Shown here: one piece after another, positions 56,066-61,710 of the stretch
Layout: every line of letters starts with the position of its first letter
Numbering within the stretch: position 1 is the stretch's first letter
Source: Phaeobacter sp. J2-8
GTDB taxonomy: Bacteria > Pseudomonadota > Alphaproteobacteria > Rhodobacterales > Rhodobacteraceae
Length of the DNA stretch: 64,000 bases
Assembly (NCBI RefSeq): GCF_022867865.1
Contig: NZ_JALIEC010000001.1
Coordinates: forward strand, 850,501-914,500
Direction of reading: 5' to 3'
The notes under the pieces: model-generated
Database searches by the model: none
What the model saw: only the letters and a program-made list of their open reading frames with translations
Told to the model about the DNA's origin: nothing
Program-made: the position numbers and the translations under genes

Positions 56066-56096
56066 TGTGATCACACGATTTTCTGCTGTGATCACA
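56066..56096 (-). promoter_or_regulatory. twin TGTGATCACA palindromes upstream of sucC
   Basis: Perfect TGTGATCACA at 56066-56075 and at 56087-56096, start-to-start 21 bp. Read towards sucC the region is ATTTTGTGATCAC-N12-TGTGATCACAAATGT, with the same layout as before sdhC at 61680-61710. Probably the operator of a dimeric regulator. Confidence 0.8.
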
Positions 56097-56249
56097 AAAT
56101 TTGTGGCAGGTGGTCAGATGCTATCGGCAAAGCGAATCACTTGACATGAAATCGCGGGAAAAAGCGGGGTTTTGCGATCCCGGCAAAGGCCGCCAAACCC
56201 GGTTTCTGTTGCGGGATCTGTTGTGGCGAATGGAAAGCCCCCTGACCCC

Positions 56250-56282
56250 AAAAGAAAAGGCGCCCGAAATCGGACGCCCCTT
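56250..56282 (-). terminator. rho-independent terminator after mdh
   Basis: On the - strand, GGCGTCCGA and TCGGGCGCC form a 9-bp stem (one non-Watson-Crick pair) followed by TTTTCTTTT. It lies 24 bp after the mdh stop, separating mdh from sucC transcription. Confidence 0.85.
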
Positions 56283-56305
56283 CCAATACTTGTCGGTGCA
56301 GTCGC

Positions 56306-57268
56306 TTATGCCAGCGAGCTGTCGATACCCTTGCAGGCTTCGACCAGACCTTTGACGGCCTTGATCGAGGTATCAAACATCTCTTGCTCTTCTTTGTTGA
56401 GCTTGATGTTGACGATCTTTTCGATGCCACCCGCGCCAATCACGGTGGGCACGCCGACATACATGCCGTTCAGGCCGAATTCGCCGTCGCAATATGCCGC
56501 GCAGGGCAGAACGCGTTTCTGATCTTTCAGATAGGCTTCGGCCATTTCGATCGCGCTGGTCGCCGGGGCATAGAACGCCGAGCCGGTTTTCAACAGGCCA
56601 ACGATTTCCGCACCGCCATCACGGGTCCGCTGAACGATGGCGTCCAGTTTTTCCTGTGTGGTCCAGCCCATCGCAACCAGATCGGGCAGCGGGATACCCG
56701 CAACGGTGGAATACCGCACCGACGGCACCATGGTGTCGCCGTGGCCGCCCAGAACAAAGGCGGTGACGTCTTTCATCGACACGTCGAATTCCGACGCCAG
56801 GAAGTGACGGAACCGCGCGCTGTCCAGCACGCCGGCCATGCCGCAAACCTTGGCATGGGGCAGGCCGGAAAATTCACGCAGCGCCCAGACCATCGCATCC
56901 AGCGGGTTGGTGATGCAGATCACGAATGCGTCGGGGCAGTTGTCGCGGATGCCTTCGCCGACGGATTTCATGACCTTCAGGTTGATACCCAGCAGGTCAT
57001 CACGCGACATGCCCGGCTTGCGCGGCACGCCGGCGGTCACGATGCAAACATCTGCGCCAGCGATGTCGGCGTAATCCTGGGTGCCTTTCAGTGTGGCGTC
57101 AAAGCCTTCTGAAGGCCCGGATTCCGCAATGTCGAGCGCTTTGCCTTCGGGTGTGCCTTCTGCAATGTCAAACAGGACGACATCGCCCAATTCCTTGAGC
57201 GCGACGAGATGAGCAAGGGTGCCACCGATTTGTCCCGCGCCGATAAGGGCAATCTTGGGTCTGGCCAT
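56306..57268 (-). CDS. mdh: malate dehydrogenase
   Basis: NAD-dependent oxidation of malate to oxaloacetate. LDH-like family: [15 protein letters not shown] (NAD loop), [17 protein letters not shown] (mobile loop with substrate Arg), ITNPLDAM, and catalytic His in LGGHGDTMV. 320 residues from ATG 57268 after GGAGAA; an upstream in-frame reading of 11 residues is rejected. Transcribed towards sucC but with its own terminator. Confidence 0.97.
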
Positions 57269-57428
57269 GGAATTTTCTCCGGTCAGGGTTGGAATTGGCA
57301 ATTTGGGTAGTGCGCTTTTGGTCCCGACGCAAGTGCGCCGCGCTGCGGCGTGTCACGGTGGCGGGGCTGGCAGGCGTGCCAAGTTAACGCTAAAGACCCA
57401 AGAACTAGGGCAGTTAGGCGGCATTTGG

Positions 57429-58184
57429 ATGTTGGAATTTACACCGGGATTTTTCGCGATTGCATTGCCCGCTGTCGCTTTTGCAGGCATGTCAAAGTCC
57501 GGATTCGGCTCTGGTGCCGCTTTTGCAAGCTCTTCGATTCTGGCAATTGTGCTGCCGCCGGGGCTGGCATTGGGCATCATGCTGCCGCTTTTGATGCTGG
57601 TCGATGTCGCCAGTCTGCGGCCCTATTGGAAACGCTGGTCCTGGCCAGAAGCGCGCCGGTTGATGCTTGGGGCGCTGCCCGGGGTGGCGTTGGGCACCGC
57701 GCTTTATCAGGTCACCAATGACGACATGATCCGGTTCCTGATCGGCCTGATTTCAATTGTTTTTGTAATTTGGCAGGTCAGCGTGAAACTGGGCTGGATC
57801 AGGCTGGGCCGGAACGGGATGCCGGCGCGCGGGGGATATTGGGCCGGTTTGGTCGCGGGGTTCACCAGCTTTGTCAGCCACGCGGGCGGCCCGCCTGCGG
57901 CGGTGTATCTGCTGGGTCGAAATCTCGACAAGACCCCGTATCAGGCGACGACGGTGCTTGTGTTCTGGGCCATCAATCTGCTGAAATTCGTGCCGTACAG
58001 CTTTCTTGGAATCTTTACGCTGCAGACCTTTACCGCCGATCTCTATCTCGTGCTGGCGGCGTTGTTTGGCGCGTGGCTCGGCGTCAAGGCGCATCACATG
58101 ATCCCGCAGCAGGTGTTTTTCACCCTGACCTACATCTTGCTGTCGTGCACCGGGGTCAAACTGATCTGGGATGCGCTGTACTGA
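57429..58184 (+). CDS. TauE/SafE (TSUP) family anion permease
   Basis: Sulfite/organosulfonate-exporter-type membrane protein, 251 residues, about eight helices. The two TSUP repeats begin with GFFAIALPAVAFAGMSKSGFGSG and WAGLVAGFTSFVSHAGGPP, each with the family's glycine and proline pattern. Start at ATG 57429. Divergent from mdh across 160 bp. Substrate unknown. Confidence 0.85.
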   Translation: MLEFTPGFFAIALPAVAFAGMSKSGFGSGAAFASSSILAIVLPPGLALGIMLPLLMLVDVASLRPYWKRWSWPEARRLMLGALPGVALGTALYQVTNDDMIRFLIGLISIVFVIWQVSVKLGWIRLGRNGMPARGGYWAGLVAGFTSFVSHAGGPPAAVYLLGRNLDKTPYQATTVLVFWAINLLKFVPYSFLGIFTLQTFTADLYLVLAALFGAWLGVKAHHMIPQQVFFTLTYILLSCTGVKLIWDALY

Positions 58185-58262
58185 TGGGGCCGGATTGAAA
58201 TCGGCCTGAACGAAAACGAAGACAATGGGTCACGGTTGGATCACGTGACCGCCATTCACGGG

Positions 58263-60327: not shown

Positions 60328-60334
60328 TGAGATC

Positions 60335-60538
60335 ATGAAACTTTATCGTTTTCTGTCCGCGGATGACACATCCGCCTTTTGCCACAAAGTCACCGAGGCC
60401 CTGAACAAGGGTTGGGTTCTGCATGGGTCGCCGACCTATGCCTATGACCATGCCAATGGCGTGATGCGCTGTGGTCAGGCCGTCACCAAAGAGGCCGACG
60501 GCACCTATACCCCCGACATGAAACTGGGAGCGCAGTGA
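60335..60538 (+). CDS. DUF1737 protein
   Basis: 67-residue protein, MKLYRFLSADDTSAFCHKVTEALNKGWVLHGSPTYAY in two parts: the conserved LNKGWVLHG core and its repeated (aromatic) beta strands match DUF1737. Start at ATG 60335; in-frame sequence upstream overlaps the nnrU stop. It abuts mch directly. Function unknown. Confidence 0.8.
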   Translation: MKLYRFLSADDTSAFCHKVTEALNKGWVLHGSPTYAYDHANGVMRCGQAVTKEADGTYTPDMKLGAQ

Positions 60539-61570
60539 ATGGCAAAGACCAATCCGGGCCGGTTCTTCGAGGATTACACGCTGGGAGAGGTGATCCCCCA
60601 TGCGGTGCCGCGCACGATTTCCGGCGGCGAACGTGCGCTTTATCATGCGCTCTATCCCGCCCGGCATGCGCTGTATTCTTCTGATGAATTTGCTCGCGCT
60701 TCTGGACTGGCGGCGGCGCCGATTGATGATCTGGCGGCGTTTCATGTGGTGTTTGGCAAATCGGTGCCTGATATTTCGCTGAATGCGGTGGCCAACCTCG
60801 GCTATGCCGAGGGCAACTGGCGGCTGCCGGTCTATCCCGGCGATACCCTGCGTTCCGAATCCGAGGTGATTGGCCTCAAGCAGAACTCCAACGGCAAAAG
60901 CGGTGTGGTCTATGTGCGCACCCGTGGTCTGAACCAGCGTGACGAAGTGGTGATGGATTATGTCCGTTGGGTTATGGTGCGCAAAGGCGATCTTGATGCG
61001 CCTGCGCCGGACATGGTGATCCCGGATCTGCAAAAGGTCATTCCTGCCTCAGATCTGGTGATCCCGGCGGGGCTGGATTTCAGCGCTTACGATTTTGCAC
61101 TGGCCGGAGAGCCGCATCGCTGGGGCGATTATGACATTGGCGAGGTCATTGACCACGTGGATGGCGTGACCATCGAAGAGGCAGAACATATGCTCGCCAC
61201 CCGCCTGTGGCAGAACACCGCCAAGGTGCATTTCGACGCCACTTTCCGACCAGACGGCCAGCGGCTGATCTATGGCGGCCATATCATTTCCATGGCGCGG
61301 GCGTTGTCCTTTAACGGGCTGGCCAATGCGCAGATGATTGTGGGGCTGAATGGCGGTGCCCATGCCAATCCGTGTTTCTCCGGCCTGACGGTCAAAGCCT
61401 GGTCCGAGGTTCTGGACAAGGCCGAAACATCTGCGCCGGGCGTTGGCGCAATCCGTCTGCGTCTGGTGGCGACATCCGGCGGCGAGGCATTCACGCTCCG
61501 GGGTGAGGACGGCAAATATCTGCCGCATGTGCTGCTGGATCTGGATTATTGGGCGCTGATGCCAATGTGA
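60539..61570 (+). CDS. mch: mesaconyl-CoA hydratase (beta-methylmalyl-CoA dehydratase), MaoC-like
   Basis: Interconverts mesaconyl-CoA and beta-methylmalyl-CoA in the ethylmalonyl-CoA pathway of acetyl-CoA assimilation. 343 residues, the length of R. sphaeroides Mch, with two hot-dog (MaoC-like) halves. The first has RFFEDYTLGEVIPHAV and FHVVFGKSVPDISLNAV; the second WGDYDIGEVIDHVDG and the hydratase histidine region. Gene order mcl2-x-x-mch-sdhC is as in R. sphaeroides. Its stop overlaps a TGTGATCACA palindrome. Confidence 0.92.
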   Translation: MAKTNPGRFFEDYTLGEVIPHAVPRTISGGERALYHALYPARHALYSSDEFARASGLAAAPIDDLAAFHVVFGKSVPDISLNAVANLGYAEGNWRLPVYPGDTLRSESEVIGLKQNSNGKSGVVYVRTRGLNQRDEVVMDYVRWVMVRKGDLDAPAPDMVIPDLQKVIPASDLVIPAGLDFSAYDFALAGEPHRWGDYDIGEVIDHVDGVTIEEAEHMLATRLWQNTAKVHFDATFRPDGQRLIYGGHIISMARALSFNGLANAQMIVGLNGGAHANPCFSGLTVKAWSEVLDKAETSAPGVGAIRLRLVATSGGEAFTLRGEDGKYLPHVLLDLDYWALMPM

Positions 61571-61597
61571 TCACATTGGCGGGGTTTCGTGATCGCT
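61566..61597 (+). promoter_or_regulatory. further TGTGATCACA palindrome with degenerate partner
   Basis: A perfect TGTGATCACA at 61566-61575 overlaps the mch stop codon. CGTGATCGCT at 61588-61597, 22 bp on, matches 7 of 10 positions. May be an auxiliary site for the sdh operator 105 bp further on. Confidence 0.5.
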
Positions 61598-61645
61598 AAC
61601 AAATTCCTGACTGTTTTAGACGGGATTTTGACCCGCAATAATAAG

Positions 61646-61668
61646 CTGAGTTGGCAATGCCAACTCAG
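61646..61668. repeat. perfect 10-bp inverted repeat between mch and sdhC
   Basis: CTGAGTTGGC, AAT, GCCAACTCAG. Could be the mch terminator, though the following TGTCGGAATTTT is only weakly T-rich, or a further operator. Lies between the two sets of TGTGATCACA sites. Confidence 0.6.
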
Positions 61669-61679
61669 TGTCGGAATTT

Positions 61680-61710
61680 TGTGATCACTGGCTTTGCGGC
61701 TGTGATCACA
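61680..61710 (+). promoter_or_regulatory. twin TGTGATCACA palindromes upstream of sdhC
   Basis: TGTGATCACT (61680-61689, one mismatch) and a perfect TGTGATCACA (61701-61710), 21 bp start to start, in ATTTTGTGATCAC-N12-TGTGATCACAAATGT context. Matches the site before sucC in spacing, flanks, orientation and distance to the start codon (115 bp). Confidence 0.8.

Follow-up and report, generated by a model that had tools for sequence, protein, structure and literature searches.

Two operators of matching design precede the operons for 2-oxoglutarate dehydrogenase and succinyl-CoA synthetase (suc) and for succinate dehydrogenase (sdh) in Phaeobacter sp. J2-8 (Rhodobacteraceae), within a 64,000-nucleotide stretch of contig NZ_JALIEC010000001.1 (positions 850,501 to 914,500; hereafter the window). 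Each is a tandem of two TGTGATCACA-type palindromes set two turns of the DNA apart. Here, from a comparison of sequences across the family, we identify the GntR-family activator AkgR as in all likelihood the co-regulator of suc and sdh. We further propose, at a probability of roughly 45%, that AkgR works as an obligate dimer pair, for which the phased tandems would form a cooperative switch activating suc and sdh and a lone site before akgR itself would mediate less cooperative autorepression. This two-tier design would be near-universal in the family, repeatedly co-lost within it and undescribed for AkgR.

Matching tandem operators before sucC and sdhC

A pattern scan of the window located an exact TGTGATCACA-N11-TGTGATCACA upstream of sucC and the same pattern with one mismatch upstream of sdhC:

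56066..56096, minus strand: tandem AkgR-type operator of suc; two perfect copies of TGTGATCACA (56066-56075 and 56087-56096), 21 bp centre to centre, 109 bp 5' of the sucC ATG
61680..61710, plus strand: tandem AkgR-type operator of sdh; TGTGATCACT (61680-61689) and TGTGATCACA (61701-61710), 21 bp centre to centre, 114 bp 5' of the sdhC ATG

A preliminary description of the window had placed both tandems at these coordinates, with a single mismatch in one of the sites and 21 bp from start to start within each, and the scan bears this out. Its observation that the flanks also match when read towards the genes is likewise correct for the window, in which both tandems have ATTTTGTGATCAC... before them and ...GTGATCACAAATGT after them; the consensus of relatives keeps these flanks only in part, with AAA.G.CG after the suc tandem and hardly anything beyond AA after the sdh tandem. 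The near-agreement of the two distances to the start codons stands, with the exact values being 109 and 114 bp in the list of open reading frames (ORFs) rather than the 110 and 115 bp given previously.

The tandem is rare against its background. No match to the tandem pattern was obtained in 100 dinucleotide shuffles of the window, even with up to three mismatches allowed. Across the whole 4.8 Mb genome, the sucC and sdhC places are the only ones with at most one mismatch; the next best, within an ORF (C1:1108094), has three, and none elsewhere has fewer, such that the tandem is not scattered through coding DNA, a possibility that the preliminary description had raised. Exact single palindromes number 12 in the genome: four in the suc/sdh region, one directly 5' of a GntR gene, and the other seven within ORFs that are 90 amino acids or longer.

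Conservation and fixed spacing across the family

We searched 295 genomes of the family, representing 294 genera, for the pattern GTGATCAC-N(0-30)-GTGATCAC. It is present in 267 of them, in most as exactly two copies, and a reversed control pattern is present in one; because the pattern permits any gap of 0 to 30 nucleotides, a pair other than the suc or sdh operator may account for part of the 267. The expectation that related genomes keep the sites was in this way upheld, and both tandems of the window have counterparts in relatives at the same genes, the suc tandem before sucC and the sdh tandem before sdhC. When 30 tandem loci were fetched, 15 lay directly before sucC, 11 before sdhC and one before sucA (27 of 30 at suc or sdh genes); the remaining three, with spacings of 18, 27 and 31 bp, were without a suc or sdh gene. 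In the wider class outside the family, the tandem pattern was matched in 3 of 285 genomes, each time away from the suc and sdh upstream regions.

The spacing is close to fixed. Among the 75 listed pairs (from 37 genomes), the centre-to-centre distance is 21 bp in 65, 20 bp in 5 and some other value in 5, and the middle of the spacer tends to be AT-rich. Three palindromes in register occur in six of the loci examined, with the third site again at 20-22 bp.

Such triple arrays in 21-bp register stand before sucC in Pseudotabrizicola, Gemmobacter and a metagenome-assembled genome of Rhodobacteraceae (L181, L190 and L203, respectively), with all palindromes exact in the first two and one mismatch in the third. 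One of the three matches from outside the family (L257, genome G440) has three GTGATCAC-like palindromes, one of them inexact, 20 and 21 bp apart and about 170 bp 5' of an AkgR-like gene (30% identical), perhaps the same geometry in another role. Two genomes hold many tandem matches (10 in G265 and 6 in G135), a possible expansion of the regulon.

AkgR as the probable regulator

The preliminary description could put no name to a regulator of these sites, a place that AkgR in all likelihood fills. We take AkgR of Rhodobacter sphaeroides to be the protein encoded by RSP_0981. This GntR-family protein is predicted to control succinyl-CoA synthetase (sucCD), sdh and 2-oxoglutarate dehydrogenase (sucAB-lpd) (PMC4344238, available text). 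The palindrome GTGATCAC is found among the binding sites of AkgR, described as a transcriptional activator of R. sphaeroides, and AkgR shares 32% identity with a GntR-like factor of Pseudomonas (PMC6365646).

The AkgR ortholog in the genome of the window, here P0001, is a protein of 215 residues encoded on another contig (C11:340578-341222); it was located through its own palindrome, one of the 12 genomic singles. It has a GntR and an FCD domain and is 75% identical to the AkgR of genome G051, in which the genes run in the order mcl, mch, tandem, sdhCDAB, akgR. G051 is likely R. sphaeroides, judging from the agreement of this gene order with the RSP numbers and from Cereibacter ovatus as the nearest named match (94%). 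Its tandem before sdhC has the 21-bp spacing seen in the window. In R. sphaeroides, akgR presumably follows sdhB directly, an arrangement that we did not find in the genome of the window within the 18 kb fetched. Among 80 titled akgR loci, lpd lies on the same fetched stretch in 36, sdhB in 5 and neither in 39, many of the contigs ending early.

The system of the window shares several features with the AkgR regulon of R. sphaeroides. It has a GntR-type regulator orthologous to RSP_0981, it carries the motif GTGATCAC at both tandems and upstream of akgR, and its sites directly before sucC and sdhC correspond to the predicted targets sucCD, sucAB-lpd and sdh. It differs in that akgR is on another contig and carries a site of its own, which G051 is without. 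The twin sites before suc and sdh are real and very probably functional.

Joint presence and absence of AkgR and the tandem

An ortholog was scored as present at E <= 1e-60, a cut set after inspection of the scores, below which matches resemble paralogs; P0001 has a match in 267 of the 295 family genomes at this cut and in 283 at 1e-15. Regulator and tandem co-occur: the ortholog is present in 260 of the 267 genomes with the tandem and in 7 of the 28 without it (Fisher p = 1.7e-20, kinship ignored). Restricting the comparison to good-quality genomes (completeness of 90% or more, contamination of no more than 5%) leaves 236 of 239 with the tandem and 4 of 21 without. The 2x2 counts were read by hand, and the test was run for AkgR alone among the GntR regulators. 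Of the seven genomes that have the ortholog and no exact tandem, G040 and G291 carry a tandem with one mismatch upstream of sucC. More generally, if up to two mismatches are allowed, matches, largely scattered ones, appear in 24 of the 28 genomes that lack the exact tandem, and 2 of 20 such loci fetched from these genomes (L243 and L255) lie before sucC.

The distribution was followed on a SucC tree of 50 rows, comprising 22 of the 28 genomes in which the exact tandem is missing, labelled by the 1e-60 cut, and 28 rows labelled AkgR-positive for carrying the tandem. Left out were three genomes without a SucC match and three with a diverged or partial one; G033, just outside the cut (1.3e-57), was labelled AkgR-positive. 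The label 'AkgR present' changes 7 times on this tree, and well-supported branches force at least 4 of the changes; with shuffled labels the mean is 15.4. An exact GTGATCAC within 250 bp 5' of sucC was found in none of the 19 AkgR-lacking genomes on the tree. On this unrooted tree, the simplest reading would be repeated joint loss of the regulator and the tandem. The proposal in the preliminary description that one regulator serves both suc and sdh is strongly supported by the conservation in 267 of 295 genomes, the 27 of 30 loci, the co-occurring GntR regulator and the joint absence on several branches.

Two genomes with no detectable AkgR ortholog have tandem-like stretches before sucC. In G157 (80% complete; L277), 4 of 16 positions are changed and the distance to the gene is the usual one, and the genome stands beside a relative that retains both regulator and tandem; in G017 (L280), 3 of 16 positions are changed. 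Both stretches are perhaps decayed operators.

The site before akgR and promoter positions

The sequence TTGTGATCACAA lies directly before the ATG of P0001, the palindrome ending 9 bp from the start codon. An exact GTGATCAC directly precedes the start codon in all 30 of the best-scoring orthologs, a non-random sample that includes P0001 itself. In 28 of these 30, a TTGAC element lies 12-15 bp 5' of the palindrome (13 bp in 26), a position from which the palindrome would cover the -10 element of an ordinary promoter. A lone palindrome over the akgR promoter in many relatives suggests autorepression.

Promoter positions near the tandems were sought in 23-25 suc and 20 sdh upstream sequences from loci fetched for the tandem or for akgR, with identical or too-short upstream regions dropped and the tandem required for this analysis. 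A GTGAC(A/T) element 57-60 bp 3' of the sdh tandem, followed 16-17 bp on by a -10-like hexamer, is present in 16 of the 20 sdh sequences, the window included:

61768..61795, plus strand: predicted sdh promoter, GTGACA-N16-TATCAA, from the pattern in sdh upstream sequences

By our estimate from this pattern, the two sdh operator centres would be at roughly -96.5 and -117.5 relative to the expected start, and a pair situated some 95-120 bp 5' of it suits activation.

Mechanism and alternative explanations

In the mechanism we propose, each palindrome would hold one AkgR dimer, and the two-turn spacing would place two dimers side by side on the same face of the DNA, from which suc and sdh would be expected to respond sharply and in concert. 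The AkgR pair would activate both operons; the lone palindrome at akgR, lying over the expected -10 in most relatives examined, would bring about autorepression. Cooperative pairing of two dimers on the tandem, which the preliminary description had suggested, fits the rigid 21-bp distance and, taken by itself, seems probable.

Several observations weigh against AkgR as the co-regulator and against the mechanism proposed for it. Seven tandem-bearing genomes lack an ortholog at the cut, and for three of them (G019, G114 and G256) completeness is 90% or more. G281 combines an ortholog of 51% identity with the absence of a tandem before sucC. The akgR site is clade-restricted, being exact in 16 of the 80 titled loci nearest the G051 protein and missing from akgR of G051. 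The 2 of 30 orthologs without the TTGAC element are those of the window's own genome and of its congener G099, and the autorepression picture is accordingly weakest in the genome of the window. No consistent promoter position emerged from the suc upstream set.

Independent binding offers an account of the same sites that we consider unlikely while giving it real weight: the palindromes would each be bound by AkgR, the pair merely raising occupancy with no contact between dimers. A lone site apparently suffices at akgR, and P0001 has only about 14 residues ahead of its DNA-binding domain. The corresponding N-terminal extension has 32 residues in NanR of Escherichia coli, a GntR-type protein of which several dimers bind closely spaced repeats cooperatively, although NanR is a repressor and its repeats are (GGTATA)3 (PMC8012715, available part). 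Against this reading, the spacing is more rigid than independent binding would require, at 21 bp in 65 and 20 bp in 5 of the 75 listed pairs, and third sites, where present, fall into the same register in all six loci.

The tandems could instead be bound by a different regulator that recognises GTGATCAC, for instance one of the other GntR proteins encoded in the genome, with AkgR being merely similar. The genome has 63 matches to the GntR domain, and PS417_07240 of Pseudomonas simiae, the GntR-like protein that is 32% identical to AkgR, is the proposed binder of the same palindrome, although it belongs to another pathway (the deoxyribonate cluster) and has one palindrome per promoter (PMC6365646, as far as its accessible text goes). 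This reading is improbable because P0001 is preceded by a palindrome of its own, tends to occur and to be missing along with the tandem, and lies close to suc or sdh in relatives, and because its likely R. sphaeroides ortholog has exactly these predicted targets (PMC4344238, available text).

CRP sites consist of TGTGA and TCACA half-sites with a 6-bp spacer, and the tandem palindromes share the letters of these half-sites, from which a global regulator of the CRP/FNR type might be imagined to bind them. The conserved pattern has no spacer, as the preliminary description had rightly remarked, and does not conform to TGTGA-N6-TCACA; R. sphaeroides is, moreover, not predicted to have CRP-analogous proteins (PMC4344238), and we hold this reading to be highly improbable. 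Chance palindromes without function, which the occurrence of 7 of the 12 exact genomic singles inside ORFs might bring to mind, have a negligible probability given the absence of matches in 100 shuffles, the 267 of 295 genomes against 1 of 295 for the reversed control, the same genes and the fixed spacing.

Neighbouring genes and other elements

The names of the suc, sdh and lpd genes in the window were assigned by recognition and are taken as such; coordinates are those of the ORF list:

54763..55956, minus strand: sucC, first gene behind the suc operator, ATG at 55956
53781-54668, 50713-53427, 49201-50709 and 47229-48623: sucD, sucA, sucB and lpd, after sucC in that order
61825..62214, plus strand: sdhC, first gene behind the sdh operator, ATG at 61825
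62227-62598: sdhD, followed by sdhA, which crosses the window end, and then by sdhB in a fetched locus (L004)

The order of the suc genes is the same in relatives (tblastn). Between suc and sdh lie ORFs at 58824-61570, an arrangement kept in several relatives; we take these to encode malyl-CoA lyase (mcl) and mesaconyl-CoA hydratase (mch) of the ethylmalonyl-CoA pathway.

Overlooked in the preliminary description was a perfect lone palindrome whose centre lies 114 bp upstream of that of the first sdh palindrome:

61566..61575, plus strand: additional lone copy of TGTGATCACA, inside the 3' end of the mch-like ORF and unlikely to belong to the conserved operator

As a candidate third sdh operator it was set aside, since the window is the only one of 20 sequences to have three exact copies within 400 bp of sdhC.

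Elements resembling those of CceR, which we presume to be RSP_1663, stand near some tandems, two of them in the window:

56042..56055, minus strand: possible CceR-like site TTTCGGCGCTAACA, three mismatches to the CceR-type palindrome TGTTAGCGCTAACA
61588..61601, plus strand: possible CceR-like site CGTGATCGCTAACA, three mismatches to the same palindrome

With up to three mismatches to this palindrome allowed, such elements turn up in 6 of the 23 upstream sequences from suc and in 6 of the 20 from sdh, and mononucleotide shuffles yield them in about 1% of cases; those of the window are partial matches, and most relatives have none at this cut. RSP_1663, of the LacI family, is predicted to control mdh and sdh through the motif GTT-N6-8-AAC (PMC4344238, available text), and CceR is described as covering sdh and 2-oxoglutarate dehydrogenase in R. 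sphaeroides and not in Paracoccus (PMC11323563). CceR shares predicted target genes with AkgR and differs in family and motif; elements of this type would fit joint control by CceR and AkgR.

Relation to earlier work and implications

For R. sphaeroides, both the regulon and its regulator had been predicted in earlier publications. Neither 'tandem' nor 'direct repeat' appears as a term in the available text of PMC4344238. In the literature searched we found no account of the fixed two-turn tandem, its spread through the family, the akgR site or the repeated joint absence; the primary AkgR paper (mBio 2015) lay beyond that search and may hold some of these.

Collectively, these findings attach a probable regulator, and a geometry that can be tested, to a previously anonymous operator. 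It becomes possible to read from sequence how 2-oxoglutarate dehydrogenase, succinyl-CoA synthetase and succinate dehydrogenase are controlled across this large family, including the relatives of both Roseobacter and Rhodobacter, and the lineages without regulator and operators are natural experiments in which the tricarboxylic acid cycle is run without AkgR control.

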